DNA of 64,000 bases from Acidobacteriota bacterium. Lineage in GTDB: Bacteria; Acidobacteriota; Blastocatellia; UBA7656. Positions 1 through 49,424 of the stretch are shown piece by piece (positions within the stretch are counted from its first letter, which is position 1; each line of letters starts with the position of its first letter). A model generated the notes under the pieces. It had not been told where the DNA came from, did not search any database, and saw only the letters and a program-made list of their open reading frames with translations. The stretch is taken from positions 1 through 64,000 of the forward strand of contig JACQDB010000104.1 of NCBI GenBank assembly GCA_016201275.1. Reading direction: 5' to 3'. The translations under genes and the position numbers were made by a program.

Positions 1-10
1 GTTTTTTTGC

Positions 11-280
11 AATCCCCCCAACGGCAGTTGGGGGATGCTTAAAGTCCAGCCTTGAGCCTCGGGCAAGGTTGGACTTTAAGCATCCCCCAACTGCCGTTGG
101 GGGGATTCGTTTCTCGTTGACAGCGTTGTCGTAGGTTGGACTTTAACCATCCCCCGATTGCCATCGGGGGGATTCGTTTATCGTAGGCGGCGTTTCGTAG
201 GTTGGGCTTTAACTATCCCCCGATTGCCATCGGGGGGATTGGCAAGCTCGGTTCGCCTCTGAAAAATGTACAAAGTCGAG
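11..280 (+). repeat. Composite hairpin-repeat element, copy 1
   Basis: Four palindromes of the form ATCCCCC-NNN-N4-NNN-GGGGGAT lie at about 13-33, 81-107, 150-174 and 215-239. They are joined by GTAGGTTGGACTTTAA-type linkers. The first unit is inverted relative to the next, with CTTGAGCCTCGGGCAAGG between them. The right end is GAAAAATGTACAAAGTCGAG. The stem bases change together (AAC with GTT, GAT with ATC), so pairing is kept. The same order of parts, reverse-complemented, is at 59956-60292. Confidence 0.85.
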
Positions 281-437
281 CTATGAACGAGTCTTTAATC
301 GGTTCGAGTTTCGCGAGGTCGAGCAGGGCGACGAGGTGCGAAGGCAGAAAAGCCGCGAAGAATTCCGCCGCCGCTTCGGGGTGCGAAAAGACTTCTTTGA
401 AAAAGCGGTCGTGCGGGTTGTGAATTTCGGTCATCAC
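213..437 (-). pseudogene. Rpn-family nuclease/transposase, N-terminal fragment
   Basis: The first ~52 residues read like the N-terminus of Rpn (PD-(D/E)XK recombination-promoting nuclease) proteins: NPHDRFFKEVFSHPEAAAEF, then a hydrophobic helix ending near KDSFI. Full-length members are about 300 aa; this frame stops after 74. The sequence from residue ~53 on (ARLCTFFRGE...) is read from the end of the composite repeat, whose boundary is at 280. The catalytic core is absent, so the product should be inactive. The reading frame upstream (to ~573) has no recognisable domain. Confidence 0.7.
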
Positions 438-558
438 AAAAACCTCTCAAACACGAAATCGTTTCACAGGCTTCGTCCGGCTTGTAGAAAAACAGGGATG
501 GCACGCCAACCGGAGCGACAGATTCAAGCCCTGCGGCCTGCAAAAACAATTTCATAAA

Positions 559-660
559 TAGAGCGTGTCGCATAAATGGATGCTTTGTCCAGATATTGTG
601 TGTGATGGCTTAACCACCTACAACATATGGGCAGTTTCTGGGATTCCGCGACACGCTCTA
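559..660 (-). mobile_element. MITE-A, copy 1 (~102 bp, TA-flanked)
   Basis: The ends are TAGAGCGTGTCGC and GCGACACGCTCTA, an exact 13-bp inverted repeat. The interior holds CCAGATATTGTG and CATATGGGCAGTTTCTG, shared with three other copies at 35453, 43473 and 50470 (all in the opposite orientation). No coding capacity. The TA at each end fits a TA target duplication as in IS630/mariner-type elements; that assignment is inference. Confidence 0.85.
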
Positions 661-694
661 AATAGCTGGCAGCGGCAAACGCATGGCTAAGGGG

Positions 695-1303
695 TTATCG
701 AGACAGCCGTTTCAGTGAACGCTTCAACACCGCTTGAATGGTGGTGTCGCCGTCTTCGCTGAGTGCCGCATTGACGGCGCGTTCGGCTACCGGTTTGGGA
801 TAGCCCAAGGCAATCAACGCCTCTACAGTGTCTTCTTTGATGGCCATATCGCTCAAGGCGGTTTGGACAGATACGGTCATCTCGCCTTCTTCAAAAACCA
901 TCTTGCCGAGTTTATCGCGCAATTCCACGACGACGCGCTCGGCAGTTTTTTTGCCGACTCCCGGAATCGCCGTCAAGCGTCCCAAATCGTTTTTGGTGAT
1001 GGCGGTAATCAATTCTGCCGAGGCCATGCCACTGAGCATGGTGATGGCGACCTTGGGGCCGATGCCGCTGACACTCAATAATTTCAGGAATAACTCTTTA
1101 TCGCGCAGCGAGGCGAAGCCGAATAATTGCAACGAGTCTTCGCGCACATGAGTATGAATTTTCAGCGACACCTCGGAACCCATTTCGCCCAGCCCATAAA
1201 AGGTGGTGATGGGAATGGTGACTTCATAGCCGACGCCATGAACATCCAAGATAATGCTGTTGGGTTGTTTGGCAATGAGTTTACCGGAAAGTTGGGCGAT
1301 CAC
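695..1303 (-). CDS. ruvA: Holliday junction branch migration protein RuvA
   Basis: RuvA binds Holliday junctions as a tetramer and loads the RuvB motor during recombination repair. The 202-aa product starts VIAQLSGKLIAKQPN at a GTG preceded by GGAGA seven bases upstream. A longer frame to 1363 adds 20 residues absent from the family. The OB fold covers residues ~1-62. Two helix-hairpin-helix motifs follow (GIGPKVAITMLSG and GVGKKTAERVVVEL, ~70-130). A flexible linker leads to the RuvB-binding domain III (~155-202). Length matches the family (~200 aa). ruvB and ruvC are not in the window. MITE-A lies 35 bp beyond the stop. Confidence 0.95.
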   Translation of the reverse strand: MIAQLSGKLIAKQPNSIILDVHGVGYEVTIPITTFYGLGEMGSEVSLKIHTHVREDSLQLFGFASLRDKELFLKLLSVSGIGPKVAITMLSGMASAELITAITKNDLGRLTAIPGVGKKTAERVVVELRDKLGKMVFEEGEMTVSVQTALSDMAIKEDTVEALIALGYPKPVAERAVNAALSEDGDTTIQAVLKRSLKRLSR

Positions 1304-28704: not shown

Positions 28705-28745
28705 ATTTTTCCAACGCCTTCAAAGATGCCGTTCCGCACCCATCC

Positions 28746-28919: not shown

Positions 28920-29166
28920 CGCGGCCTCCTCTCGTTTTCCACTCCGGCGACGCCGAGGGATTATCCAATGCGCCAAAATAAACCCCGTGCGGTAAAGCTC
29001 AAGACCGCTAAGGATCGCAGATGAAATCATGTGGGCGCTTTGATGGCTGTCGGAAAAATGAATGAGGCATACCAGAAAAGGTAGCCGCCCTCTTCCTGTT
29101 GCCCATATATAGTGTTCGGCTCAGGAGTTTTCCGACCACCAGCAAAGAACCATAAAGTGCAACCTG

Positions 29167-29197
29167 GTAGGAGCGACCCTGCGGTGGTCGCCCCTAC
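29167..29197. repeat. Short imperfect palindrome (GTAGGAGCGACC type)
   Basis: GTAGGAGCGACC and GGTCGCCCCTAC face each other across 7 bases. It lies 50 bp past the adaptor gene in a 330-bp gap; a related GTAGGCGCGACC palindrome is at ~49970-50022. Confidence 0.5.
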
Positions 29198-29246
29198 AGC
29201 GCCTGGGAGAATCACTCAAGTTTTGCAGGGTATTGCATCTCCCCTC

Positions 29247-31070: not shown

Positions 31071-31103
31071 AATGAATTCCATTCCTGATTCCACAAAAGG
31101 TTG

Positions 31104-31132
31104 CGCGCGCCCTGTGATACGGAGGGCGCGCG
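31104..31132 (-). terminator. GC-rich hairpin between lipoprotein and adaptor genes
   Basis: CGCGCGCCCT and AGGGCGCGCG (10-bp perfect stem, 9-base loop) lie 10 bp past the lipoprotein stop and 34 bp before the adaptor start. It may attenuate rather than end the transcript. Confidence 0.6.
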
Positions 31133-31142
31133 GTTCTGCCGT

Positions 31143-31802: not shown

Positions 31803-31860
31803 TGCAATTTTCTCCTCTCGGTGTTCAGGTTTACTTGAAGTCAAAGGCTGTACTAAATCT

Positions 31861-33372
31861 CTATTTGCTAATGCGAGTTCCCAAAGCTCTCTCCAATTCA
31901 ACCGTGGAGAGGTAATACTCTTTGAGGGCGTCAATATACTGTTGTTTGGTCTCGATCAAGCGACGCTGCTCGGCAATCACATCGAGAATGTCCTTATCGC
32001 CAAGATCATAGGCGGTGCGAATCATCTGCAAGTTTTCCTGAGAGCGCGGCACTATATCGGTTTCGTAAAGCTGTATGGCTTCCTTTGCCGTTTGCAAGCG
32101 GTTGAACGCGACGGTGACATCGCGTTTAATCACCTGCTCCAAAAATTCCCTGCGATAACGGGTTTGAGCGCGAGTGGCAACGGCTTCGGCAATAGCCCCT
32201 TGATTGCGATTGAAAAACGGCAACGGCACAGAGACGCCAAACGCTGCCTTGCGGTCAACATCAACTAAACGACCGCCAGAGGATAGCCCAAAGATGCTCT
32301 TGTCCTGCGTGAAGCGACCAAAAATATTGATGTTGGGAACGGCCTCGGCCTCGGCCAGCCTGAGGCGTGCGTCGGCGGCGGTTTCGCCGATGCGCGCCGC
32401 TTGCAAGTCGGTACGACTTTGCATAGCTGCTAGCTGTAATCCTTCAAGGGTCAAGCCCTCCATGACCTTGAGCGGATTCAGCGCGCCTTGAAGCCGCACG
32501 TTTTCTTCGCTGCCCAGTCCCGCCAGCGTTCGCAGTTGCGAGAGCGCCGTTCTCACGCGATTTTCCGACTGTAATAATTGCGCCCGCAGACGACCGACTT
32601 CGACGCGTATGAGATTCACATCCAAGCGTGCTGCGTCACCCTCTGTGAAGCGAAGTTGGATGAATCGCAAGGTCTCTTCATTGAAGGCGATTAACTGCTC
32701 GGTGATGCGGAGATTTTCAGTCGCGGCCAGCGCTTCGGCAAACTGCGAGCGAATCTCAGCGGCAAGCTGCTGTTCTTGAAAGGCCAGTTCTTTTTCAGCC
32801 TGTTCCAACTCAAGCTGAGAAACCCGCAAGCGTTTGCGACGTTTTCCGGCAAGCTCAAGCGGCTGTATGTAAGCAGCGCTGATGCCATATTCGCCTTGGC
32901 CAGACCCGACGATCTTGTCAGTGACATACTCGGTGTCAAGCGTAGGGTTGGGGCGTAAACCGGATTGCACCAGCCGTCCATTGATGATCGCCAGATTCTG
33001 TCGGGCGGCAAGCAGATTGCGATTGCGACTGGCGGCCAGATTAAAGAGCGCTTCATAGGTGACGCCATTGGTCTGATCCACATAGCGATCATAAATAGGA
33101 GTTTGGGGAGCCGTGGGCAAAGGGAGTATAGGTTTGCTCTGCTGTTGCCGTGTGCTGCGTCCGATGATTCCAGAGCCGCCCCGCTCTTCTTCGCCAACGA
33201 CTGCTGTGGAACCGTCTGTCGGTTTTTGCAAGTCACCCTTTGATTGTGGCACTCGGATTTTTTCTTGATCCGGCGATTGAGCCAACGCCACCATTTGCCC
33301 CCCCATCGTCAGCAAGAGAAATAAAGTAAAATAGGTTTTCCAACTCCGCTTCTTTCCGCCGTATCCGTTCAT
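31861..33372 (-). CDS. TolC family outer-membrane efflux protein
   Basis: The 503-aa protein forms the outer-membrane duct of the RND complex. It has a signal region (WKTYFTLFLLLTMGGQMVAL), a ~95-residue low-complexity head, then two OEP repeats of long helices: YEALFNLAASRNRNLLAARQ (~107) with LRPNPTLDTEYVTDK, and LRLAEAEAVPNINIFGRFTQ (~335). The last helix ends TVELERALGTRISK. Its ATG overlaps the stop of the upstream YtkA-like gene (ATGA), so the two are translationally coupled. The head is longer than in E. coli CusC, with no clear lipobox. Confidence 0.9.
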   Translation of the reverse strand: MNGYGGKKRSWKTYFTLFLLLTMGGQMVALAQSPDQEKIRVPQSKGDLQKPTDGSTAVVGEEERGGSGIIGRSTRQQQSKPILPLPTAPQTPIYDRYVDQTNGVTYEALFNLAASRNRNLLAARQNLAIINGRLVQSGLRPNPTLDTEYVTDKIVGSGQGEYGISAAYIQPLELAGKRRKRLRVSQLELEQAEKELAFQEQQLAAEIRSQFAEALAATENLRITEQLIAFNEETLRFIQLRFTEGDAARLDVNLIRVEVGRLRAQLLQSENRVRTALSQLRTLAGLGSEENVRLQGALNPLKVMEGLTLEGLQLAAMQSRTDLQAARIGETAADARLRLAEAEAVPNINIFGRFTQDKSIFGLSSGGRLVDVDRKAAFGVSVPLPFFNRNQGAIAEAVATRAQTRYRREFLEQVIKRDVTVAFNRLQTAKEAIQLYETDIVPRSQENLQMIRTAYDLGDKDILDVIAEQRRLIETKQQYIDALKEYYLSTVELERALGTRISK

Positions 33373-35709: not shown

Positions 35710-36363
35710 ATGAAGATTCAAAGCTATATCATGGCTCTGGTGATGCTCGCGGCGCTCGTAGTGTCGAGCGTCTTGGCGCAACATCCGGCTGGACACTCCG
35801 GCATGGAGAAAAAAGAGCAGGAGAAGAAAATGGCCACTGCGCCCTACGACCTACAGTTTATTGACATGATGCTCAAGCATCATCAGATGGGCATTGAGAT
35901 GGCGCAGATGGCGCAGAACAAAGCCTCTCACGCTGAGTTGAAAGAACTCGCCACAAAGATGGTAGAGAAACAGCAAAAAGGCTCCGATCAACTCAAGCAG
36001 TGGCGCGATGAGTGGTACGCAGGACAGCCCAAAGCTGACCACATGAAGATGTCTGAGATGGCGGGGATGGCGGAGATGTCCGAAAAATCCAAGTCCGATC
36101 ATCCTCCCAAGTCCGAGATGTCAGGCATGAAGATGCAGGAGATGAATAGGAGTAAGCTCGAAGCCGCTACCGGCAAAGAGTTTGACCTGCTGTTCATAGA
36201 CCTGATTGTTCCGCACCATCAAATGGCAATAGCGATGTCAGAGAAGGCGCTCAAGAAGGCCGAACACGCGCCGCTCAAGACCTTTGCACGCACGACCATA
36301 GAGGAGCAGCAGAAGGAGGTCAAGCAACTGAACCAATGGAAAGCCGCCTGGGGCGGCAAGTGA
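35710..36363 (+). CDS. Secreted DUF305 protein, copper type
   Basis: The 217-aa protein has a signal peptide (YIMALVMLAALVVSSVLAQH, cleavage ~24) and then two DUF305 halves. Each carries the metal-ligand helix: MLKHHQMGIEMAQMAQNKA (~55-73) and VPHHQMAIAMSEKALKKAEH (~165-184). Each pairs with a second helix ending in QQK.SDQLKQWRDEW or QQKEVKQLNQWKAAW. The linker is rich in Met, Ser and Lys (SEMAGMAEMSEKS). DUF305 proteins are linked with copper tolerance in several bacteria. AAAGGAGAG precedes the ATG. It probably binds periplasmic copper between the storage protein and the large membrane protein downstream. Confidence 0.88.
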   Translation: MKIQSYIMALVMLAALVVSSVLAQHPAGHSGMEKKEQEKKMATAPYDLQFIDMMLKHHQMGIEMAQMAQNKASHAELKELATKMVEKQQKGSDQLKQWRDEWYAGQPKADHMKMSEMAGMAEMSEKSKSDHPPKSEMSGMKMQEMNRSKLEAATGKEFDLLFIDLIVPHHQMAIAMSEKALKKAEHAPLKTFARTTIEEQQKEVKQLNQWKAAWGGK

Positions 36364-36535
36364 CGAGACGCAGAGGTTGAGCGTGCTTCTGGTTGGGCGG
36401 AGAAACTTTCGCCGGACTGCGGAAACAGAGGCGGGAAACTCGGCGCACGAACTGCACCAGAGGCGATTACTCAGGTCCTTGATGCGGCGCGTGAGTATGG
36501 AGATGAATAAACTTGACAGCAGAGGTGAACCAGCT

Positions 36536-38746
36536 ATGAAGATGGGCATTGATGCGCCTTCCCCATCTCACGAGGCCCCGGCGGGTGAATCCGTAATCGG
36601 AGAAAAGACGCGCTGGTGGGCGCTTGCGGGAATCTTGATTGGCAGTTTCATCGGTTGGGTGAGCGGTCTGGCGTTTGGCTTCGGGCGCTTGAACCTTGCC
36701 GGCCTTGCGCCGCTGGTCGCAGGCGGCGCGGGAGTGCCGGGCCTCATCTTCGCAAGCTTTTTCGGCGCTCTGTTTGGACTGGCAGGCGGCCTCCTCGGTA
36801 CGGCAAGCGAAGTTCGCGCCGCCAGTGCCATCAAATCATACCAAGCAGAGCGCACAGCCGCACATCAGGGCAAGTCGTCCATCATCATGCGACTACCTGT
36901 TTATGGCGCGATATTGCTGGTGAGCGTGATGGCCTATACGCTCTACACGATTGCCGTGAGAGGGTACGGAGCCGCCACGCCGTCTGACCAAAGTAATCGC
37001 CTGACCTGGAACCAGAAGAACGCAGCGCGGGTGGGGGGCGTGAACGACACCGAGACCTCTGCGCTTATTTTACAAACGACTTTTCCGGCAACGCGGCCTG
37101 AAAATCGGCCAGGGGCAATCATTACGGTCAGCGCGGACTGGCGCTTGGCGCTTGCGGCCACACCGCTGATGGCGCGACCGGTCAACGCGGCGCTGGTCAT
37201 CAGTGGCGGGGACGGAGTGGATGCTTATACCGCGCAGGAGATCGAACGCCTGAGCGTTCCAGCCTCGGCCACCGGGCGACTCTTCATTGGCATCCCGGCA
37301 AACGCAAGCGGCACCTCGCTCGCAGGTGATGACCCTGCCGCTGTGGCTGCCGCCGTTGATGAACGACGAGCGCGTGCAGAGGGTAAAACAGATGCAAACG
37401 TAATCATCATTGGCGCGGATACCGATTTCCGCTGGGCCTTGCCCGCCGGGGCTTACGCCGCACGTACTGGCACCGCAATCCTTTTCGTAACCAAAGACGG
37501 AGTGCCGTCCGCTACTGCCGCCGCCCTTGAACGACGCAATGGCCAAGCGCACATCTTCATACTGGGGCCGGTGGAAGCCGTGCCTTCGGGGGTCTTCGAT
37601 GAACTCAAACGGTTCGGCGAAGTCCGGCGCATAGAAGGGCGCGACTACTTTGAAAACGCAGTACGCTTTGCCGAATTCCGCGATGCGGGAGCGGGTTTCG
37701 GCTGGGGACATACCGGACGCGGCGCACGGCAGTGGGCAGTAGTCAACACCATTCTGGTAAGCGCCGAGCGCTGGCAAGATGGCATAATGGCCGCGCATCT
37801 GGCGAGCCGAGGGAAATCCGGCGCGCTGCTCTTCACCGAGCGCCAACGTCTTCCGGCGGTCGTGGACAACTACCTGTGGAGGCAGCGCCCGGTCTTTTCC
37901 AACACCCCTGCCGAAGGGCCGTTCAATCACGTCTGGGTGGTCGGTAGTTTCGAGCGCATCGCTTATGAAACGCAAGCCTGGGCGGATTACTCTCAGGAGA
38001 TCGAGCAGTACATGACGTTGGGCGATTCGGCGGTTTCCGGCTTTGAGGCGCTGACCATCAGTTGGCTCCTCTTTTCCATTGCGTCGGCGATCTGGATTCT
38101 TTATCACGCCCTCAAGCGACTGCCCGAAGTGCTGCCGATGATGAAGGCGGCGTGGGTGATCTTTGCTTTGCTGCTTGGTCCGCTGGCGCTGTGGTTTTAT
38201 GTCAAGAGCTATGACCGGCGGGGGAAGATGCAACACGATGGAATGGTGATGTGGCAGCGCCCAATGTGGGCGCAGGTCGTGTCAGCGACGGTGATGATGT
38301 TTGCCTTTGATATGATGGTGATGGTGCTTGCGGTCTTCGTTCTCGCTTCCTTCGGCTTCCCTATCATACGCTTCAACGGGGCGCTCTACTGGCTCGGCAC
38401 TTCGATGTTTCTGATGATGGTCTTGATGTATGGGGCGGCGCTCATTCTGATGCTGCTTGTCTTTCACACACCCATGACCATGCACGAGCGCCAGATTACT
38501 TCTTATGGGAAGGCTTTCCTGGTGGGCTTGCCCCTAATGGTCGCCACGATGACGGTAGAATCCCTCGGCATGATGCCGACGATGTGGTGGGCGCAGATGC
38601 TCTACCTACCGGCAATGCAAATGCCGACCGGCGATGACCTGACCATGTGGGCGACGCTGTTGATGTCCGTAGCAGTGGCCTTCGCCATTGTGCTGCCATT
38701 CAACTACTGGATGGTGCGGCGGGGCACCAAGAGCGGTACGATGTGA
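36536..38746 (+). CDS. Large membrane protein: CWB2-like domain fused to Met-rich (DUF4396-like) domain
   Basis: About 736 aa from the ATG at 36536 (GAGGTG upstream); ATGs at 36497 and 36503 are possible. Parts in order: two or three helices with Gly-rich segments (~22-90), one further helix (~115-137), a soluble domain (~150-495) built of alternating strands like the cell-wall-binding repeat 2 (VNTILVSAERWQDGIMAAHL, then GALLFTERQRLPAVV), then a helix pair (~500-550) and a C-terminal bundle (~560-735) very rich in Met (KMQHDGMVMWQRPMWAQVV, VMMFAFDMMVMVLAVFV), resembling DUF4396. Met-rich helices are typical of copper transport. A soluble paralogue of the central domain is encoded 23 bp downstream. 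Function unknown. Confidence 0.7.
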   Translation: MKMGIDAPSPSHEAPAGESVIGEKTRWWALAGILIGSFIGWVSGLAFGFGRLNLAGLAPLVAGGAGVPGLIFASFFGALFGLAGGLLGTASEVRAASAIKSYQAERTAAHQGKSSIIMRLPVYGAILLVSVMAYTLYTIAVRGYGAATPSDQSNRLTWNQKNAARVGGVNDTETSALILQTTFPATRPENRPGAIITVSADWRLALAATPLMARPVNAALVISGGDGVDAYTAQEIERLSVPASATGRLFIGIPANASGTSLAGDDPAAVAAAVDERRARAEGKTDANVIIIGADTDFRWALPAGAYAARTGTAILFVTKDGVPSATAAALERRNGQAHIFILGPVEAVPSGVFDELKRFGEVRRIEGRDYFENAVRFAEFRDAGAGFGWGHTGRGARQWAVVNTILVSAERWQDGIMAAHLASRGKSGALLFTERQRLPAVVDNYLWRQRPVFSNTPAEGPFNHVWVVGSFERIAYETQAWADYSQEIEQYMTLGDSAVSGFEALTISWLLFSIASAIWILYHALKRLPEVLPMMKAAWVIFALLLGPLALWFYVKSYDRRGKMQHDGMVMWQRPMWAQVVSATVMMFAFDMMVMVLAVFVLASFGFPIIRFNGALYWLGTSMFLMMVLMYGAALILMLLVFHTPMTMHERQITSYGKAFLVGLPLMVATMTVESLGMMPTMWWAQMLYLPAMQMPTGDDLTMWATLLMSVAVAFAIVLPFNYWMVRRGTKSGTM

Positions 38747-38769
38747 CCCCCGTCATCAAGGAGGAGAAG

Positions 38770-39981
38770 ATGAGACGCATACTTGTGGCGATGGGGATTG
38801 TGACATTGGCGATCTTGCCATTCATCATAGTTGGCCAGGCACAGCCGCCTACTCAGGCCATCGCTCCAGCAGCTACGGCTGCCGATGAAGGCAATAGACT
38901 GACCTGGACAACGCCGAACACCATACGACTGTCCGGGCCGAATATTTACGCGGCGGCAACCGCGATCACGCAGGCGACTTATGGCGCAACGCACCACGAA
39001 GACCGTCCCCACGCCATTACCCTTGTGCGCGCTGACCGCCAGGCCGATGCCATGCTTGCCGCCTCGCGGATCACGCATTTCCCCGTCAACTCACCGGTGC
39101 TTTATGTTGATGCCGAGCGTCTGCCGCCGGAAACCTTCGCCGAAATGAAACGGCTCAGACCAGATGGCAACACCTATGATGCAGGCGTCCAGGTTTATCT
39201 GGTTGGTCCCATTGCAGCGAGCGTCGAGCGCGAAGTGCGCGATCAGTTAAACTATAAGACCCGCGCTTTTCGCAATGATAATCCGTTTGCTTTATCCGAA
39301 GAGTTAGACACTTGGGCGGCGGCGGTTCACGCCGACCATCCCGATGAGGTGATTATTGTGCAATACGAACAACTGCAAACGGGTTTGCCTGCGGTTGCCT
39401 GGAATGCTCACATGGGGCATGGCCTGTTCTTCGTCCAGGGCGACGTTGTGCCAGAGCCGACGAAGCGGGCGCTGTCTCGCCGATTTCGCGGCGAGGCGTT
39501 CCTATACCTTTTTGGCGACCCCGCCATTATCTCGGCGCGTGTGGCGCGTGAACTCGCCGCCTACGGCCATGTGCAGCGTGTGCCAGGCCGCGACGCCTAT
39601 GAGATCAGCGTCAATTTTGCGGGCTTCCGCGACGCCGGTATGAATCAAGGTTATTGGCTTGGCTGGTGGGCGCGTGATTTCGGCTGGGGCATTGCGAAAG
39701 CCGGACATAACTTCACCTTCGCCAATCCCGACGATTGGCAACAGGCCGTCACTGGCTCGCTCCTTTCCCACCTGGGCAAACACGGGCCGCTGATTCTGGT
39801 GCGCCCTGATGGCGTAAGCGAAAGCGCGGCACGTTATCTGCAACTGGTGAAGCCGACCTGGGGCGCAGCCAATGACCAACTCAATAATCACGGCTGGATA
39901 CTCGGCGGCACTGACCGCATTAAATGGGAAACGCAGGCCGACATTGACGGGCTGCTGGAAGCTAGAACCGAGAGCGAGTGA
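38770..39981 (+). CDS. Secreted CWB2-like protein, paralogue of the upstream soluble domain
   Basis: The 403-aa protein has a signal peptide (RRILVAMGIVTLAILPFIIV), then NRLTWTTPNTIRLSGPNIYA, parallel to NRLTWNQKNAARVGG in the preceding membrane protein. Several alpha/beta repeats follow: AITLVRADRQADAMLAASRI (~80), VQVYLVGPIAASVEREVRDQ (~140) and the paired REAYEISVNFAGFRDAG-type segment, which matches RDYFENAVRFAEFRDAG upstream. Both proteins also have GWG-x-(G/A) turns near the same place. It lacks the membrane parts. AAGGAGGAG fixes the start. It probably binds or works beside its membrane paralogue on the periplasmic face; ligand unknown. Confidence 0.75.
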   Translation: MRRILVAMGIVTLAILPFIIVGQAQPPTQAIAPAATAADEGNRLTWTTPNTIRLSGPNIYAAATAITQATYGATHHEDRPHAITLVRADRQADAMLAASRITHFPVNSPVLYVDAERLPPETFAEMKRLRPDGNTYDAGVQVYLVGPIAASVEREVRDQLNYKTRAFRNDNPFALSEELDTWAAAVHADHPDEVIIVQYEQLQTGLPAVAWNAHMGHGLFFVQGDVVPEPTKRALSRRFRGEAFLYLFGDPAIISARVARELAAYGHVQRVPGRDAYEISVNFAGFRDAGMNQGYWLGWWARDFGWGIAKAGHNFTFANPDDWQQAVTGSLLSHLGKHGPLILVRPDGVSESAARYLQLVKPTWGAANDQLNNHGWILGGTDRIKWETQADIDGLLEARTESE

Positions 39982-40050: not shown

Positions 40051-42903
40051 TCAGGCAATAGCAAAATCGTACTGCTCCTGATGCAGGTTGGGGTCTGCTT
40101 CAATGGTTACGGGAGTGCCGAAATAGGCTTCGATCTCTTCAAAGACCTGACGCTCCGAGGTGTGCAGCGCTTCGGCAACCATCGGCGAAACCCGCAACAT
40201 TATATCGCTGCTGCCAGCCACCTGTTCGGAAATCGCTTTGGTCTGCTCCAGAATTTCAAAGCACATGGTCTGCGGCGATTTCACCATGCCGCCGCCCTGA
40301 CAATAGGGGCAAGGCGTACACAGCGTGCGTTCCAGCGATTGCTTGACGCGCTTGCGGGTGATGGCCAGCAAACCGAAATCATTAATCGAAAGAATCTTTG
40401 AAGGCGAGCGGTCGTTCGCCAGTTCTTCCTGCAAGGTCTGCATAACGCGCTGGCGATTCTTGCGCTCTTCCATGTCTATGAAATCCACCACGATGATGCC
40501 GCCCAGATCGCGCAGGCGAATCTGTCGAACAATCTCTTTGGCGGCTTCCAGATTGGTCTTGGTGATGGTGTCTTCGAGCTTGTCGGATTTGCCGACAAAC
40601 TTGCCGGTGTTTACGTCTATGGCGACCAGCGCTTCGGTTTGATTGATGACGATGTAGCCGCCCGAACGCAGCCACACACGCGGCTTCACGGCTTTATCAA
40701 TCTCTGGCTGCACGTTGTACTTTTCAAAGATCGGCTGATTGCCGGTGTACAACTTGACGCGATTGACCAGGCGCGGCTGCACCCGATTGACGAATTCAAC
40801 AATGCGCGCATACTCCAATTCATTATCCACGCGTATGACGCTGAACTCTTCGGAAAGCTGGTCGCGCAGAATGCGCTGAATCAAATCCAAATCTCTATGC
40901 ACCAGCGCAGGCGGTTTGACGCGCTCGCCCTTCTTGCGTATCTCGTTCCAGGTGCGAACCAGATAGCGCAGGTCATCGTGCAATTGCTGGTCGGGAATAC
41001 CAGCACAAGCGGTGCGCGCAATAAAACCGCCCGGCGCGCCTTCGCGGTCGCGCAACGCCGTCACCAGGCGCTTCAAACGTATGCGCTCCTGATCGCTGGG
41101 AATCTTGCGCGACACGCCTATGTGATTGACCGTCGGCATATAGACCATATAACGACCGGGCAAAGCGATATGCGAAGTGATGCGTGCGCCTTTTTTGGCA
41201 ATCGGTTCTTTGGCAATCTGCACCAAGACTTCCTGGCCTTCGCGCAGCAATTCGGAAATGGTGGGCGCAGCGTTGCCGCGTTCCGGTCGGCGCGAGGGTT
41301 CAGAGCGTCTTTGCGGCTCTGGTCGGCGCGAGGGTTCGGGGCGACGTTGGGGTTCGGGTCGGCGACTGGGCGCGCCTTCCTGAGCGGCGACCTCGACGGC
41401 CTCTTCGGCTTCGCCTTCCGCGCCAGCTTCCTCGCCAAGCGGTGCAGCACCCGGCGCGCCTGGTTTCCCATCTCGACGTTGCGGCCCACGGCGGCGATTG
41501 CGTCCGCCGCGACGCATGGCAAATTCGGCGCGGTTGCCGCTGTCGCGCAGGCTCGCCGCTTTCTCCTCTTCGCCGGTTTCCGCAGCGCTCGATTCGCTGC
41601 CATCGCTGTGCTGCATAAACTCCAACAGATTGACCGGCACCGCTTCAGAGATAGGTTGGAAAGCCGGTTCATTGGCCGGCGCTTCAGCGTTTGCCGCCGT
41701 TGAGGTTTCGGCTTTGGTGAGATGACTGTTCTCATCCTCTATGCGTTGAAAACCGGCATCGGCTTTTGCCTGTGAACGGAAACTGCCAACCTTCCATTCC
41801 GGTTCCGGTTCGGCTTTGAAAGACGAAGTAGTTTTTTCTACAACGGTCTCGGTTTTCTGATTGGCCTTGTCCGCTTTCTTCTCTTTTGCAGATTTGGCGT
41901 GACCGGCATCTTCGTCCACGATGCGCTCAAAGGGCGTAGCGCTGCTACCGGCTTCAAGAGTGTCGTCGGGCGCGCCGCGTCTCTTCTTCGCAGGGCGTTT
42001 GGCGCTGCCTTTGGTTTTCTTGCCTGCTTCCACAGCGAGGGCTTCGGGTGCAGGCTCGGCGCTGACCGCCTTGCGAGAGCGGCCTTTCGATTTCTCCGGT
42101 TCTGCTTCTGCAACTTTCTTGCGCGAGCGTCCGCGTTTGGGTTTCTCTTCGACCTCTTCTTCATCCGCCGATTCCACTTCATCAGTCAAAGGGCTGGCGA
42201 CCACTGGCGATGGCTCAACTTTTGCGGCAGGCGTATCGCGCACCACATCATCATCGGTGATGCGTTCGGCATAAAATGCCGGAGCCGAATCGCGGTAACT
42301 TTTTTCGTGAGCATCTTCGACGCGCACAAAAGAGGGCGATTCGATGACCGTTACCGAAGCTTCTTCGACGCCCGTAGCCGCTATGGTTGCCGCGCCGTTG
42401 GCACCTTCGTCCAAGTCCTCCGGCGGCGGCGCAGGAATGACTCGTTCGTGCGCGATCTCGGCCAATTGCTCGACCGCATCTTCAAACGGCAGGGCTTCAA
42501 CGGCAGGTTCTTTGCTGAGGCCTTCGCGTCCGGCTGGGCGCTCTGGCCTTTGATAAGGCGTGTCGCGGTCGCGTCGGTCGCCGCGTCGAACTTTGTCATC
42601 GGCGGGCTTCGGCGCGATTGCGGTTGCGGTGTCGCTGACCTCTTTGAAGTCAACCTCTTCTTCATCGTCCATGAATTCCGCGAAATCGGAAACATAGAGA
42701 AAGGCGTCGCGTTCCAGGCCGATGTCCACGAACGCCGATTGCATACCGGGCAGCACCTTCATCACACGGCCTTTGTAGAGATTGCCCACGACACCCTGAT
42801 TTTCATCTCTGCGCTCTACATAAAATTCGGTGACCACACCGTCTTCGACCAGAGCGACCCGTTTTTCATACACGTTTGCACTAATAATTAGCTCTTTAGC
42901 CAT
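40051..42903 (-). CDS. rne/rng: RNase E/G family endoribonuclease with a ~470-residue insert in the S1 domain
   Basis: This 950-aa RNA-processing and decay endonuclease begins with the N-terminal beta region and the first half of S1 (GNLYKGRVMKVLPGMQSAFV, ~40-59; FLYVSDF, ~68-74). Residues ~75-545 are acidic, Lys/Ala/Glu-rich and probably disordered, closing with an Arg-Pro-Glu repeat (RRPEPQRRPEPSRRPEPQRR). S1 then resumes at LLREGQEVLVQIAKEPIAKK (~550). The catalytic core follows: VAIDVNTGKFVGK and GGIIVVDFIDMEERK carry the two metal-binding Asp, and CTPCPYCQGGG (~862) is the Zn-link. In E. coli the S1 gap is ~20 residues. It lies downstream of rodA, separated by a 670-bp gap. Confidence 0.93.
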   Translation of the reverse strand: MAKELIISANVYEKRVALVEDGVVTEFYVERRDENQGVVGNLYKGRVMKVLPGMQSAFVDIGLERDAFLYVSDFAEFMDDEEEVDFKEVSDTATAIAPKPADDKVRRGDRRDRDTPYQRPERPAGREGLSKEPAVEALPFEDAVEQLAEIAHERVIPAPPPEDLDEGANGAATIAATGVEEASVTVIESPSFVRVEDAHEKSYRDSAPAFYAERITDDDVVRDTPAAKVEPSPVVASPLTDEVESADEEEVEEKPKRGRSRKKVAEAEPEKSKGRSRKAVSAEPAPEALAVEAGKKTKGSAKRPAKKRRGAPDDTLEAGSSATPFERIVDEDAGHAKSAKEKKADKANQKTETVVEKTTSSFKAEPEPEWKVGSFRSQAKADAGFQRIEDENSHLTKAETSTAANAEAPANEPAFQPISEAVPVNLLEFMQHSDGSESSAAETGEEEKAASLRDSGNRAEFAMRRGGRNRRRGPQRRDGKPGAPGAAPLGEEAGAEGEAEEAVEVAAQEGAPSRRPEPQRRPEPSRRPEPQRRSEPSRRPERGNAAPTISELLREGQEVLVQIAKEPIAKKGARITSHIALPGRYMVYMPTVNHIGVSRKIPSDQERIRLKRLVTALRDREGAPGGFIARTACAGIPDQQLHDDLRYLVRTWNEIRKKGERVKPPALVHRDLDLIQRILRDQLSEEFSVIRVDNELEYARIVEFVNRVQPRLVNRVKLYTGNQPIFEKYNVQPEIDKAVKPRVWLRSGGYIVINQTEALVAIDVNTGKFVGKSDKLEDTITKTNLEAAKEIVRQIRLRDLGGIIVVDFIDMEERKNRQRVMQTLQEELANDRSPSKILSINDFGLLAITRKRVKQSLERTLCTPCPYCQGGGMVKSPQTMCFEILEQTKAISEQVAGSSDIMLRVSPMVAEALHTSERQVFEEIEAYFGTPVTIEADPNLHQEQYDFAIA

Positions 42904-43472
42904 GAATTCTCCTGATTAGAAATAGGCGAGCAAATAAGTAAGCGAAGGAAACCGAACAGACAAACGCTGCGGGAGAAATCCAGCGGTTTAGGCTGCGCGA
43001 CACCCGGAGCATTGCTAGGCGGGACCTGAAGGGTTGCAGCTTTGCGCCTTATCAAGCCGTAATGGCTCGGCTAAGAAAGCTCAACACCGATAAATCCAAA
43101 CACGCCTGCCGAGGGCAGAGGCTGATACGCTTCCTCATGCGGCAATCGGCAAGGCAGCGTTTCGATGAAAACTTTTTGAAACCCGCCTGGGTTTGTCCGG
43201 CTGGCGAAGATCGAAATCTTCAAGCGCCGTTTGCGGACAGCATTCAATCTTACTCAACTGCTCAAATAAAGCGATGAATTCCGTGCAAGCGTTAAAAAGT
43301 GACCTTCAAGCGAAGTTGCAACCTGTAGCAGGCACAAACGCGATGGTCGCTTTGCAGCGTGGATGAACGGAAGGCTTCATCGCCGTGTCAAAGTCAAATT
43401 TTCAAGCGCAGGAAGTGCCACCACCGCAAGTTTGCGGCAACCGCCCTTCGCTGCTCCACCACTAACTAATTC
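42904..43472. other. Gene-free region between rodA and the RNase E/G gene
   Basis: Only weak short frames occur here. MITE-A closes the region on the right. I see no terminator or clear promoter. Confidence 0.45.
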
Positions 43473-43573
43473 GAGCCTGTCGCAGAATCCCCAAAAACCG
43501 CCCATATGTTGTGGATGGTTAAACCTTCACATACAATATCTGGACAGAACATCCATTTATGCGACACCCTCTA
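43473..43573 (+). mobile_element. MITE-A, copy 3, overlapping the rodA stop
   Basis: GAGCCTGTCGC to GCGACACCCTCTA, with the same interior as the other copies. The terminal CTA at 43571-43573 is the rodA stop codon (TAG on the minus strand). Confidence 0.85.
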
Positions 43574-44671
43574 ATTCACAAATCTGCGGAACCGCACACT
43601 GAGCGCCAGCCCGACCCCGGCAAACATAGACATGATGGAGGTGCCTCCGGCGGTCATCAATGGCAGCGGTATTCCCATAATCGGCATAATTCCTACAACC
43701 ATGCCAAGATTGCATAGAATGTGAAAAGTGATTAAGGCGACAAAACCCATAATCATCGTCGCACCGGCCTTGTCTCTGGCGCTGAGGGCCACCGCAATCA
43801 AGCGCCAGAGGAAAATCAGATAGAGCGCCATCATCATCAAAATGCCTATGAATCCGGTCTCTTCTGCGATTACTGCACCAATAAAATCCGAATAGGCATA
43901 GGGCAAAAAGCCCAACTGCCCCTGGGTTCCCTTGCCTATGCCCTTGCCGGTGGGGCCGCCCGAACCGACGGCAATCATGGATTGAATCGTTTGATAAGCG
44001 AAGCCTTTGGGGTCGGCGGATTCGGGGTGAAGAATGACTTCAATGCGCTCGCGCTGATAGCCCTTCAAATGCGGATACACGGCAATCAAAGCGAGCGGCA
44101 GAGCCAGCACTCCGGCAATCACAAATTTTTTCGGGATACCCGCCAGAAAATAGAAGACCGCGAGAATCGCCCCAAATACCAACATCGTGCCGGTGTCGTG
44201 TTCGAGAGCAATCAAAATCACCGGCGGAAAGACGTAGGCGGCCATAATCGCGGCATCCCGGAGCGTGAACTTGCCGGGTCGCCGCTTCGTCAAATAACGC
44301 GACAGCATCAAGATGGTGGCGACTTTGGCGAACTCGCTCGGTTGAATGCTTGGCATTCCCGGAATATGCAACCACGCTTTGTTGCCGTTGAGCGTTACGC
44401 CTAAAGGGGAGATCACCAGCACCAGTAGAAACAACACTGCGCCGTAGATGAACGGGGCAACTTCGTTGATGATTTTGCGGTAATCCGTAAACATCACCAC
44501 CGCTGCTATGAGCAAGCCGATCAGCAAAGCGATGAGTTGTTTTTTGACGAAGTCAAACGGTTTCGGCGAGGTGCTGTAGATGCCTATGCAGCCGAACACG
44601 GTCAAGGCAACCGGAGCCATCAACAGCAGCCAGTCAATGTCGCGGAAAGTTTTACGACTGAGGTCAATCAT
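43571..44671 (-). CDS. rodA: Rod-shape SEDS glycosyltransferase RodA
   Basis: The 366-aa SEDS-family peptidoglycan polymerase works with PBP2 in the elongasome. It has about ten membrane helices and the family segments YGAVLFLLVLVISPLGVTLN, GNKAWLHIPGMPSIQPSEFA (~92-111), FLPYAYSDFIGAVIAEETGF (~258-277) and GIPLPLMTAGGTSIMSMFAG (~332-351). The Asp of the SDF motif is the known essential residue. It follows mrdA by 97 bp. The stop codon TAG comes from the end of MITE-A, so the final few residues (RRFVN) may differ from the ancestral end. Confidence 0.95.
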   Translation of the reverse strand: MIDLSRKTFRDIDWLLLMAPVALTVFGCIGIYSTSPKPFDFVKKQLIALLIGLLIAAVVMFTDYRKIINEVAPFIYGAVLFLLVLVISPLGVTLNGNKAWLHIPGMPSIQPSEFAKVATILMLSRYLTKRRPGKFTLRDAAIMAAYVFPPVILIALEHDTGTMLVFGAILAVFYFLAGIPKKFVIAGVLALPLALIAVYPHLKGYQRERIEVILHPESADPKGFAYQTIQSMIAVGSGGPTGKGIGKGTQGQLGFLPYAYSDFIGAVIAEETGFIGILMMMALYLIFLWRLIAVALSARDKAGATMIMGFVALITFHILCNLGMVVGIMPIMGIPLPLMTAGGTSIMSMFAGVGLALSVRFRRFVN

Positions 44672-44768
44672 TGGTAATACAAATTCGTTTGCTCAACATC
44701 CTAGGGCAAGCCTTGAGGGTTTGAAGGCGCAAGCATTTTACCACGCTCACGCATCAAGCCAAAGGCGG

Positions 44769-46844
44769 TTATGGATTGCGCCGCCGGTTGTCCAGCACAG
44801 GCAGGTGTGTTGCCTGCGTGGTAGCGCCAGCAGACAGCAGCGGCTTGGCCGCCGGTTGCGCCGCACCAATGCCTGCTGTAGTTTTCGGCAGCGCCGGTTT
44901 ACGGCTGTTGGTCGCACCACCAGTCGCGCCATTTTGACTGGTCGGAGTCGCGCCTTGAGCGGCGGCATTCGGGTCAACCAGCGCCTGAAATTCGGGAGCC
45001 AACGCCCGCCCAAATTTCTTGGAGAAATAGGCCAGATGAATCATTTTCACTTTGGGGCCGGAAGCTTTCGCGCCAAAGCCGCCGTTTTCGGTTATCGCCA
45101 CGACCGCAATCTCCGGCGTCACCTCTTTACCCAGCGGCGCGAAACTGATAAACCAGGAGTGATCCTGTAATTTTTTGCCGACCGCTTTATCTTTAGAGAT
45201 GACCTGCGCGGTGCCGGTCTTGCCGCCGACGTTCAACTCTTTCGGAAAGCCTATGCCGCCGCCAGTGCCACCTTCGTTGACCACGCCCCAGGCCGCATAA
45301 CGTATGGCGGCGGCGGTATCCGGCGACAGGTGCAAATCCGTACTCTTGTCTTCGTAGTTGATGACCGTAGCCAGTTCCGTGGCTTTCGCTTCCTTTAAGA
45401 AATGCGGCGTGTGAATCATGCCGCCCATCATGATGCCGGATTCGGCGCGAATCAATTGAATCGGCGGAATCGCTACAGCGCCCTGCCCTACGCCGGACAA
45501 CGCGCTGTCGAAGTCCGTCCATTCAGGGCTGCTCGGATTGACTCGGGCTTTCCAAGTAGCGCTTGGCACTGACCCCATAGATTCATGCGGCAAGTCTATG
45601 CCGGTCTTCTGCCCCATGCCGAATTTGCTCAACCACTCTTTCATCACGTCCAAGCCCATCTTGACGCCCAGACGGTAATAATAGCCGTCGCAGGAACGCA
45701 CGAGGGCGGTATGCACATCAGGAGCACCGTGATTGCCCATGCAATGAATGAAACGTCCGCCGACCTGCAAGCCGCCACCGCAAACGAGGCGCGAATTATT
45801 CAACGGTGTGATGCCTGCTTCGATGGCCGCCGTACTCATCATGATTTTCCAGGTCGAACCCGCCGGATAGAATCCTTGAATGGCTTTGTTGTTGAGCGGG
45901 TGTTTGGGGTCCAATAAAATCGCCGTGATCTCTTTGCGATTTTCCGAAGAGATGACATTACGGGCAAACACATTGGGGTCGAAATTCGGGTACGAGGCCA
46001 TCGCCAGAATTTCGCCGTTGCGCGGGTCAAGGGCAATCGCCGCGCCGGTATCGCCTTTGCTCTCGAATTGTTCTTCGGCGACTTTTTGAATATCTATATC
46101 CAGTGTCGTCACCAAGTCCTGGCCTTTGATGGGTTCGATTCTTTTCAGCTCACGAATCAAGCGCCCGTGACTGTCCACCACCACTTGGCGCTTGCCGTTG
46201 ACGCCGCGCAGCAATTTATCGTAGTAGGCTTCCAAGCCGCCTTGCCCGATGATGTCGCCGGTCTTATAGCCCATCTCTTCATACTTGGGATTTTCCAGTT
46301 GTTTGGGGCTGATCTGACCGATGTAGCCCAGCACATGGCAGGCGATTTTGCCATACAGATAAACTCTCTGCGGCTGCGTCTCGAAAGCGATTTCAGGATG
46401 CTCTTCCTGATGCGCGGCAATCCAGGCCAAGTCGGCATCCGTGGCTTTCTGCTTGACCAGTATGGGATCGGATTTCGAGCGCAACGGATTATTGATTTCG
46501 CGTTCGGCCTCTTCGCGTTCGACCCCCAAAGCATTGACCAGTACGGCAATGGTCTCTTCTTTATTGGGCGGCATATCTTCGGGATAGATGACGATATTGA
46601 AAGCCGGGGTGTTATCCACCAACACTTTGCCATTGCGGTCAAGAATCGCGCCACGCGGCGCAATCAAAGGAATATCGCGTATGCGATTATTTTCAGCGCG
46701 TATCTTGTACTCTTCGTGGCGCGCCACCTGTAAAAAATAGAAGCGAATGCCCAACATGAGAAAAACCGCAAGCACCAGATATTGAATCAGCGTGACTCGC
46801 GCCTCGAAATCCATAGAGCCTTCTTTAGGACTGTTTTTACTCAT
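44769..46844 (-). CDS. mrdA: Penicillin-binding protein 2 (class B transpeptidase)
   Basis: The 691-aa PBP2 cross-links peptidoglycan during elongation. One N-terminal helix (VTLIQYLVLAVFLMLGIRFY, ~18-37), pedestal domain with RGAILDRNGKVLVDN (~68), then the transpeptidase: SxxK in PAGSTWKIMM (Ser ~329), SxN-type triad SCDGYY (~392) and KTG in GGKTGTAQV (~541). The C-terminal ~70 residues are an Ala/Pro/Asn-rich tail. Its ATG overlaps mreD by 8 bp, so translation is coupled. Confidence 0.95.
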   Translation of the reverse strand: MSKNSPKEGSMDFEARVTLIQYLVLAVFLMLGIRFYFLQVARHEEYKIRAENNRIRDIPLIAPRGAILDRNGKVLVDNTPAFNIVIYPEDMPPNKEETIAVLVNALGVEREEAEREINNPLRSKSDPILVKQKATDADLAWIAAHQEEHPEIAFETQPQRVYLYGKIACHVLGYIGQISPKQLENPKYEEMGYKTGDIIGQGGLEAYYDKLLRGVNGKRQVVVDSHGRLIRELKRIEPIKGQDLVTTLDIDIQKVAEEQFESKGDTGAAIALDPRNGEILAMASYPNFDPNVFARNVISSENRKEITAILLDPKHPLNNKAIQGFYPAGSTWKIMMSTAAIEAGITPLNNSRLVCGGGLQVGGRFIHCMGNHGAPDVHTALVRSCDGYYYRLGVKMGLDVMKEWLSKFGMGQKTGIDLPHESMGSVPSATWKARVNPSSPEWTDFDSALSGVGQGAVAIPPIQLIRAESGIMMGGMIHTPHFLKEAKATELATVINYEDKSTDLHLSPDTAAAIRYAAWGVVNEGGTGGGIGFPKELNVGGKTGTAQVISKDKAVGKKLQDHSWFISFAPLGKEVTPEIAVVAITENGGFGAKASGPKVKMIHLAYFSKKFGRALAPEFQALVDPNAAAQGATPTSQNGATGGATNSRKPALPKTTAGIGAAQPAAKPLLSAGATTQATHLPVLDNRRRNP

Positions 46845-47364
46845 AAAACCTCCGCCTGATCGCCATGCGTTTGGCCTGCGATTGATCGGGGAACAAACGA
46901 TTCAAGACCCAGAAAATCGGTATCGAAGCCAGCGTATCGCCGAGCGTTTTCAATCCCAGCGTCGCGCCGAATTCTCCCCACGCCCCGACGTGCTGAATGG
47001 ATTGCTCCAGCATCAGATACAAGCCAACGACGAAGATCGTGTTGGCGGCTGAGGCCAAGGCAACGATGCCCAGGCGCGCCAAGGGATTATCCAGCGGGAA
47101 TTTCACACTGACGGTGGCGATGACGTAACCGATCAGGGTTTTGGAAAACCCGCCGACGCCCACTATGCCGCCGCCTATGATGTCGCTGCCCACGCCAGCC
47201 AACGCTCCGGTCCACATACCCATCATCGGCGACCGCATCAAACTGAAATAGACCGTCACAATCAGGGGCAGTTCGATGAAGCGAAAAAACCGCAGATGCT
47301 TGGGGAGCAGCAACTGTAGCAAGAGGGCGAGAAGGACAGTTAGCGTTATTTTCAGTATCTGCAA
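46837..47364 (-). CDS. mreD: Rod-shape-determining protein MreD
   Basis: The 175-aa membrane protein has about five helices: ITLTVLLALLLQLLLPKHL (~5-23), FIELPLIVTVYFSLMRSPMM (~30) with the conserved G-x-W-x-G of MMGMWTGALAGVGSD (~48), and further helices to ~155. It belongs to the elongasome with MreB, MreC, PBP2 and RodA. It is 19 bp downstream of mreC and overlaps mrdA. Confidence 0.9.
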   Translation of the reverse strand: MQILKITLTVLLALLLQLLLPKHLRFFRFIELPLIVTVYFSLMRSPMMGMWTGALAGVGSDIIGGGIVGVGGFSKTLIGYVIATVSVKFPLDNPLARLGIVALASAANTIFVVGLYLMLEQSIQHVGAWGEFGATLGLKTLGDTLASIPIFWVLNRLFPDQSQAKRMAIRRRFYE

Positions 47365-47383
47365 TCTGCCGACTACCTCGAAA

Positions 47384-48235
47384 TTATTTTATCGTCTCTT
47401 CAAGTTTCAACTCTTTGGCGTCAATGAGCAGGACGAGAACATTTTCAACACGATCCACCTGCGCTGCCGGATTGACGACGATGCGTTTCCAAGGCGTGCT
47501 GCCATCATTCTCTACGCGCTCGGTGGTGCCGACGATCAAGCCTTTGGGATAGATGCGGTCTAAGCCGTTGGTGACTACGGTTTCGCCTTCCGGCACTTCT
47601 TCCGTTGAAGGAATATTTTTGATTTCGCAGCGCGCATTATTCAAGCCTTTTAACACGCCCATCGCCCGTGTGCTTTGCAGCATAACGCCAACCCCGGCGT
47701 TGCTGTCGGTGATGACCTGCACCTGCGCGAAATTGGGGCCGACGCTGATCACTCGTCCGACGATGCCTGTAGTTGTCGCCACCGGCATATCGCGCTTGAC
47801 GCCATCCAGCGTGCCGCGATCAATAGTCAAACGGTTGAACCACAAAGAGGTGTCGCGGGCAATCACGTTGGCCGCCACTTGACGATATTGCAGCAGACTT
47901 GGCAAGCCATAGGTGTTGCGTATGACATCGTATTGCGCCGCCTTTTCGCGGCTTTCATTCAAGGCGATGGTCAAGCGCTCGACCTCTTGCCGCAACTCTT
48001 CGTTTTCGCTTTTGGCGCGGCGCAATTCCGACAAACCGCTAAAGCCGCCACCGATTTTCGAGATCACCGCATCGCCGACTTTTACAAGCGGCGAAAAGAC
48101 GCTCATCATCCAGGTGCGAAAAACGGACTGCTCGCTACTTGGGTGACGGGCATTTACCGACATCAAAATTAACTGACCGAGCAGCAGCGCCGCCAGCCAC
48201 CAATGGGTTTTCCGTTGAACGGGACTTGCACTCAT
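47384..48235 (-). CDS. mreC: Rod-shape-determining protein MreC
   Basis: The 283-aa periplasmic scaffold that activates PBP2. One N-terminal helix (WWLAALLLGQLILMSV, ~12-28), a coiled coil (ELRRAKSENEELRQEVERL, ~70-90) and two beta-barrel domains with FNRLTIDRGTLDGVKRDMPV (~133-152), GIVGRVISVGPNFAQVQVIT and the C-terminal GTTERVENDGSTPWKRIVVN. Length and order match the family. Confidence 0.93.
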   Translation of the reverse strand: MSASPVQRKTHWWLAALLLGQLILMSVNARHPSSEQSVFRTWMMSVFSPLVKVGDAVISKIGGGFSGLSELRRAKSENEELRQEVERLTIALNESREKAAQYDVIRNTYGLPSLLQYRQVAANVIARDTSLWFNRLTIDRGTLDGVKRDMPVATTTGIVGRVISVGPNFAQVQVITDSNAGVGVMLQSTRAMGVLKGLNNARCEIKNIPSTEEVPEGETVVTNGLDRIYPKGLIVGTTERVENDGSTPWKRIVVNPAAQVDRVENVLVLLIDAKELKLEETIK

Positions 48236-48380
48236 AACAATTTATCAGCGTCTTGAAGTCTGGCGTCCGAAATCTGGAGTAACCTGAACCATTCCTCAGG
48301 CTTTGAAGGCAAGAGACTCGACGCAAATCAGGCAGCAAACTTTTGGACGCCGGACACCGGGCGATAGACTTCAGACTGCA

Positions 48381-49424
48381 TTATGATCCATGCAAAACCA
48401 TAGTATTTTCCCAACTGACGCGGCTCAACAAATCGAAATCGGCAAGCATCTTGCCCGTGCCGAGCGCCACCGACGACAAAGGATTTTCGGCCAGCGACAC
48501 CGGCACGCCGGTCTCGTGCATCAAGCGTTTGTCTATACCTTTGAGCAACGCGCCGCCGCCGGTCAACACGATGCCGCGTTCAGCAATGTCGGCGGATAAT
48601 TCAGGCGGCGTTCTTTCCAAGGCCACGCGCACCGCATTGACCACCGTAGCAATCGGGTCGGAGAGAGCTTCGCGCACTTCTTCATCGGTGATGGTGATGG
48701 TTCGCGGCACGCCTTCAATCAGATTGCGCCCTTTGATTTCCATAGTGATGGGTTCTTCCATAGGCCAAGCCGAGCCGAGTTCAATCTTGATCGCTTCGGC
48801 GGTGCGTTCGCCAATCAATAAATTATATTTGCGTTTGATGTATTGAATGATGCCTTCGTCCAATTCATTCCCGGCGACGCGCACGGCGCGGGAATAGACG
48901 ATGCCGGAAAGCGAGATGACGGCGATGTCTGTGGTGCCGCCGCCGATGTCCACAATCATATTGCCGTAGGGTTCAGTGATCGGCAGACCCGCGCCGATGG
49001 CTGCCGCCATAGCTTCGGCGACCAGATAAACTTTTGAAGCTTTGGCGCGATAGGCGGCGTCTTCGACGGCGCGGCGTTCCACTTGGGTGATTTCGCCGGG
49101 AACGCCGATAACGACTCTGGGCGACACCCACGAGCGCCCGTTGTGGGCTTTGCGTATGAAGTGCTGCAACATTTTTTCGGTCACTTCAAAATCGGCAATG
49201 ACGCCATCTTTCATGGGACGTATGGCAACGATGTTGCCGGGAGTGCGCCCGAGCATCTCTTTGGCTTCTTTGCCGACGGCTTCGACTTTGTTGGTGATTT
49301 TGTTAATCGCGACAATCGAGGGTTCGCTCACCACGATTCCCCGACCTTTGGCATATACCAAAGTATTGGCGGTGCCTAAGTCTATGGCAAGGTCACTCGA
49401 AAAAGGGTTAAATAAATTTCTCAT
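48381..49424 (-). CDS. mreB: Actin-like rod-shape protein MreB
   Basis: The 347-aa actin homologue polymerises along the membrane and directs wall growth. Phosphate 1 motif [20 protein letters not shown] (~9-28), phosphate 2 [19 protein letters not shown] (~157-175), adenosine motif [16 protein letters not shown] (~287-302). It is the first gene of the leftward mreB-mreC-mreD-mrdA-rodA cluster, with 145 bp before mreC. GAGG is close to the ATG. Confidence 0.97.

Follow-up and report, generated by a model that had tools for sequence, protein, structure and literature searches.

An acidobacterial RNase E/G with a scaffold-sized, predicted disordered insert inside its S1 domain

We found that the RNase E/G gene (rng/rne) of a bacterium of the phylum Acidobacteriota (class Blastocatellia) encodes a 950-aa protein in which the S1 domain is interrupted by a predicted disordered insert of 474 residues. 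The gene occupies positions 40051..42903 on the minus strand of the window, i.e., the whole stretch of 64,000 nucleotides that was analyzed (contig JACQDB010000104.1), and all parts of the gene given below lie on this strand. By analogy with described RNase E proteins, the insert is likely an arm with a scaffolding and RNA-tethering role. The reading that we prefer, with a probability of roughly 0.6, is that this arm replaces the C-terminal tail as a disordered scaffold and RNA tether, which would dock partners, bind RNA and promote clustering.

The reading frame, recognized by ORF, Pfam, NCBIfam and phmmer analyses, starts with ATG preceded by AGGAG, and it is the only RNase E/G copy genome-wide. 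The RNase_E_G domain (Pfam) was detected at residues 581-853 (7e-102) and RNase_E_G_Thio at residues 864-946; the TIGR00757 score (489 bits) exceeds the cut-off of 326. Among the NCBIfam models, the ribonuclease G equivalog NF008689 scores highest; its match is split by the insert and reaches 495.3 bits, below the curated cut-off of 594. Residues 549-950 (40054..41259) comprise the second S1 half, the 5' sensor, the DNase I-like catalytic domain, the Zn-link and the Thio-like C-terminal domain, as delineated by Pfam, HMM, conservation and AlphaFold2. Nine residues (F58, K571, R630, T631, D763, N765, D807, C865, and C868) are invariant in 88 homologues. We take D763/N765/D807 to be the D/N/D catalytic metal site, R630-T631 the Arg-Thr of the 5' sensor, F58 and K571 the S1 Phe and Lys, and C865 and C868 the Zn-link cysteines (CPxC). 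The same catalytic core is found in Escherichia coli RNase E, with 35-40% identity over structural alignments and conserved active-site, 5'-sensor and Zn-link residues. Judged from its sequence, the window protein is therefore an RNase E/G with an ordinary catalytic core. According to the HMM fit, only 5 aa follow the last domain, so that a C-terminal scaffold is absent, as is the long noncatalytic region after the core that marks type I RNase E.

The first 74 residues (42682..42903) form the RNase H-like start and the first half of the S1 barrel, as indicated by the HMM match (4-74), alignment with the E. coli N-terminus and pLDDT values of 95-98 over most of this part. The predicted disordered insert follows at residues 75-548 (41260..42681), delimited by HMM, composition and AlphaFold, and the second S1 half resumes at 549. 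These limits confirm the initial annotation, made from the sequence alone, which placed the halves at about 74 and 547 with some 470 residues in between. The alignment to E. coli RNase E proposed there as a check bears this out: phmmer matches E. coli RNase E (2bx2) to residues 4-75 and 544-893 as two separate pieces, and once the insert is omitted both S1 halves align in one stretch, over E. coli residues ~4-235. This places the break in the loop formed by E. coli residues ~76-86, so the E. coli gap is ~11 residues rather than the ~20 originally assumed.

Structure prediction, the other check suggested, gave a barrel closed across a low-confidence insert. Our conclusions are drawn from the second of two AlphaFold2 models, built with 88 sequences; the first, with 31 sequences, was satisfactory only in parts of the core. 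In the second model the S1 halves and the core have pLDDT mostly between 90 and 98, and almost all residues from 84 to 534 fall below 50. The insert is also low in hydropathy and highly charged (fraction of charged residues, FCR, 0.37), and the Uversky boundary places it among disordered sequences. Low confidence and composition together predict that the insert is disordered, in agreement with the original proposal, although a low pLDDT does not by itself prove disorder. When the E. coli S1 domain (1smx) is superposed on the model, 80 of its 87 residues fit within residues 40..587 at rmsd 2.0 and Z 11.7, so S1 is split in sequence and closed in the model, and the S1 RNA-binding barrel of the RNase E/G family is present in the predicted structure. 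The whole E. coli core superposes on 1..950 over 442 residues with Z 32.6, but the rmsd of 13.1 means that the arrangement of sub-domains is not reproduced by the model.

The insert is not peculiar to this protein. A search for relatives gave matches in all 58 genomes, the N- and C-terminal parts nearly always matching separately within frames of ~750-1200 aa. Each relative from the class for which the complete gene could be measured has a long insert, which rejects chance. Measured lengths range from 251 to 552 aa in Blastocatellia and from 302 to 395 aa in named Acidobacteriia, Bryobacterales and Terriglobia records (302-707 aa for Terriglobia-type proteins overall). At the loci of other phyla the gap is 7-59 aa, with a single Lentisphaerae case of 138. 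A Pfam family search in a draw of 60 acidobacterial genomes revealed a graded series of 2-45, 56-92, 114-130, 198-242 and 467-707 aa. In the core tree, acidobacterial inserts of at least 114 aa form one clade (support 0.98) beside lineages with 21-92 aa, and no loss was seen within the sampled long-insert clade. We read the single clade and the graded lengths as one stepwise expansion. The position of the long disordered region, inside S1 rather than after the core, was thus rightly recognized from one sequence and is common to a whole clade of Acidobacteriota.

Arm and tail seem to exclude each other. Of 97 acidobacterial proteins, 61 have a gap of 56 aa or longer, and in all of these the C-tail is at most 10 aa; 7 have a C-tail of 100 aa or longer, and in all of these the gap is at most 20 aa. 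These counts come from related sequences, and the tailed proteins lie elsewhere in the tree, so they represent a contrast between lineages and not independent swaps. Most short-gap acidobacterial proteins have neither arm nor C-tail. We also observed that some Acidobacteriota possess a pair of RNase E/G proteins, of which one bears a C-tail of 190-310 aa and the other has none (L173/L198, L192/L204, L183/L214, L193/L207). In Elusimicrobia, the RNase E/G genes located behind mre/mrdA/rodA (L069, L084, L085, L090, L115) have the shortest S1 loop, of 7 residues, and, ahead of the core, ~170-590 aa of open frame; this stretch may represent an N-terminal extension and a third possible location of a non-core region.

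Within the insert, conserved elements alternate with fast-changing sequence. In the first AlphaFold model, the EDAVEQLAEIAH region (residues 140-151; 42451..42486) was the sole segment with a fairly confident predicted helix (pLDDT 76); in the second it shrinks to 144-148 at pLDDT ~50. This segment is conserved in the family, and other families show a helix-like stretch. The motif [FYL][EQ]R[IVL].[DE] is present in two copies, FERIVDED (residues 325-332; 41908..41931) and FQRIEDEN (residues 385-392; 41728..41751). It was found in 37 of 40 Blastocatellia inserts, one to several copies each (shuffles, at most 4), with 73 matches against 0.7 expected from shuffles. Between the two copies lies EPEPEWKVGSFRSQ (residues 365-378; 41770..41811) with the conserved P-E-P-E..VGS motif (365-374; 34 matches versus 0.9 in shuffles of the same 40 inserts). 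A further motif, GE[LM].KDA (GE[LM]LKDA), gave 18 matches versus 0; the window protein and L003, its nearest relative, have lost it. The conserved Arg-rich block, ASLRDSGNRAEFAMRRGGRNRRRG (residues 450-473; 41485..41556), follows the Blastocatellia consensus A.[VL]R...R.EFA.RRGGR.RRR. The Arg pattern RR.R.RR gave 78 matches versus 0.8 in shuffles; it recurs in 36 Blastocatellia inserts out of 40 (at most 4 after shuffling) and in all 5 Terriglobia-type inserts (at most 1). In the latter, the Blastocatellia motifs give way to LPGESL[AS]K[YL] (5 of 5 versus 0 in shuffles), duplicated as LPGESL.K[YL] in the longest arms (467-707 aa), and an Arg-rich block likewise stands ahead of the second S1 half. 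The shuffle counts ignore the relatedness of the sequences; the motifs nonetheless recur over most families. Conserved short motifs, as sought in a scaffold, are therefore present in a region predicted to be disordered. None was recognized among known degradosome docking motifs, and the class-specific motif sets and the loss of LKDA imply that any docking repertoire is fluid.

The insert has many acidic stretches, and its opposite charges are segregated in blocks beyond chance (z 4.5), a blockiness that exceeds z 3 in 44 of 58 inserts of more than 100 aa. It is under purifying selection, with dN/dS of 0.07-0.25 versus 0.01-0.06 for the core in pairs with finite dS, values that are rough because most dS exceed 1. 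The Arg-Pro-Glu repeat noticed at its end (residues 513-543; 41275..41367) is real and consists of 36-bp units in a tandem array at 41285-41364, but it is lineage-specific. In other genera it is replaced by Arg-rich repeats such as RRPDP, DPRDPR or RGDRGD, and since the unit changes between genera we rejected it as a conserved functional element.

Insertions in S1 as such are known: stretches of 50-150 aa were described in alpha-proteobacteria and plants (PMC4245959). The RNase E proteins of Caulobacter, other alpha-proteobacteria and plants likewise carry a charged, predicted disordered insertion in S1, and the Caulobacter S1/5'-sensor fragment 4OXP superposes on window model residues 36..673 (Z 21.1); the inserts are likened here by their described features. 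They differ in length, 50-150 aa against 251-707 aa in the acidobacterial long-insert classes and 474 in the window, and Caulobacter RNase E has in addition a long scaffold at its C-terminus, which the window protein lacks. Like E. coli RNase E, the window protein has a long and charged region, here predicted to be disordered, that contains Arg-rich stretches as well as short motifs; it lies at the C-terminus in E. coli and within S1 here, where E. coli has a short loop. E. coli RNase G (rng/cafA) resembles the window protein in having no C-terminal scaffold but has no long S1 insert. Arg-rich motifs together with an Arg/acid repeat of fast-changing copy number, as seen here, also characterize the short linear motifs (SLiMs) AR1, AR4 and REER of Pseudomonas aeruginosa RNase E; these sit in its C-tail, and we claim no sequence homology with the window insert (PMC11964227). 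The contrast with E. coli drawn in the initial annotation is thus correct as to architecture and overstated as to novelty, because S1 insertions were already known in the two groups above. A 2011 survey of mRNA decay lists a 511-aa RNase E/G without a predicted degradosome for Fibrobacteres/Acidobacteria (PMC3071783). No account of acidobacterial RNase E emerged from the literature searched, which did not include the principal review on the types of RNase E, by Ait-Bara and Carpousis (2015; doi 10.1111/mmi.13095). The kind of insert is therefore known, and the acidobacterial variant is apparently undescribed; as far as the literature searched shows, its size, its clade-wide spread in Acidobacteriota, its conserved motifs and the fact that no other scaffold region accompanies it are new.

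We infer partner docking, RNA binding and condensate formation by the arm from these features. In the proposed scheme, a short S1 loop in an acidobacterial ancestor would have grown stepwise into a long intrinsically disordered arm, which would have taken over the job that the C-terminal tail performs in type I RNase E proteins, that of E. coli among them. The arm would dock partners (helicase, PNPase or others) through short linear motifs and helices, its Arg-rich block and Arg repeats would bind RNA, and the Arg elements together with alternating charge patches could drive clustering into degradosome- or BR-body-like assemblies. With both ends of the arm anchored in the S1 barrel, partners and RNA would stay close beside the substrate-entry channel. 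Parts of this scheme have precedents. RhlB binds 1:1 to a Caulobacter RNase E fragment (1-274) that includes the S1 insert, its site within the fragment not being narrowed further (PMC4245959); in the P. aeruginosa tail, it is Arg-rich SLiMs and REER repeats that bind RNA and drive foci (PMC11964227); and alternating charge patches mark the IDR of Sinorhizobium meliloti RNase E that forms BR-bodies (PMC12691583). The genome that holds the window encodes PNPase as well as DEAD-box proteins. We also noted that its PNPase (L132, G000:C62) has a C-terminal tail rich in Asp, Arg and Gly, GDDGDDGDDDG...RRPGGGNRGPRR, which may be a counterpart for interaction with RNA or RNase E/G. The wider proposition, that much of Acidobacteriota assembles its degradosome on an S1-grown arm at the rim of the substrate channel with clade-specific motifs of its own (FERI.DD, LKDA, LPGESLxKY), which would add a further architecture to those of RNase E, is more tentative, and we would rate it a little below even odds.

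The main rival to a scaffold is a regulatory lid, in which acidic and helical segments would cover the groove of S1 and the 5' sensor, competing with RNA and thereby gating cleavage, without any scaffolding. Such a role would suit an insert that is attached within S1 and acidic in many stretches. A lid is also what the Caulobacter crystal structure suggests: the insert there is partly helical and protrudes into the predicted RNA site, where its acidic residues could mimic RNA, and deletion of the Arabidopsis insert lowers activity (PMC4245959). We consider it unlikely, given that tens of residues are enough for a lid, against 250-700 here, that the Arg-rich block and repeated motifs resemble multivalent docking or RNA binding, and that neither AlphaFold model places insert segments confidently.

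The second rival, which seems to us still somewhat less probable than a lid, regards the insert as a mostly neutral, tolerated loop expansion generated by slippage of GC-rich repeats, with a few incidentally conserved residues. It would account for the genus-specific tandem repeats at the insert end and for the fast evolution with many indels, the insert being 45-87% identical in close pairs versus 82-100% for the core. However, motifs are kept across most Blastocatellia families, dN/dS is well below 1, charges are patterned and there is no loss within the sampled clade. The outcome that would have counted against a special architecture, an ordinary motif-free loop expansion in all relatives, is not what we found, since the insert occurs in all class relatives measured and carries conserved motifs, in addition to the Arg block, the charge pattern and the signature of selection. 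An assembly or frameshift artefact, or a fusion of two genes, might be suspected from the unusual length and from the sub-threshold ribonuclease G equivalog score, but the same uninterrupted frame is shared by relatives in dozens of independent genomes and the S1 barrel requires both halves, so that both can be dismissed with near certainty. The tail-replacing scaffold and RNA tether accordingly remains our preferred reading of the arm.

The RNase gene is preceded by a conserved mreB-mreC-mreD-mrdA-rodA neighborhood (43571..49424, minus strand), identified from gene order and found, whole or in part, also in other Acidobacteriota, Elusimicrobia and Verrucomicrobia, and for rodA in Eremiobacterota. 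The E. coli RNase G gene occupies a similar position, following mreBCD. The rodA-RNase gap (42904-43570) spans 667 nt, contains no convincing gene and is longer than in the Terriglobia-type relatives read. Rfam returned no structured RNA match at the RNase locus, and a promoter/terminator scan of the gap gave no match. E. coli rne autoregulates through its long 5' UTR, and a long leader in the gap is therefore conceivable. Elsewhere in the window, two adjacent genes with cell-wall-binding-2-like domains (CWB2, PF04122), the first also with DUF4396, lie at 36377-39981. A gene for a DUF305/CopM-like metallochaperone (35710-36363) adjoins them, and 25513-33372 holds an RND efflux set that includes a CusB-like fusion protein; together they look like a metal-handling island. 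No near plasmid match was obtained, and a plasmid origin was rejected.

A large part of the phylum thus possesses 750-1200-aa enzymes with a scaffold-sized predicted disordered arm in an unexpected place. The graded series (~20, 56-92, 114-242, 250-700 aa) within one phylum makes the origin of a scaffold traceable step by step. If the arm docks partners, it would represent a natural experiment in moving the scaffold beside the RNA channel, and its clade-conserved motifs would serve as specific baits for the partners of an acidobacterial degradosome.
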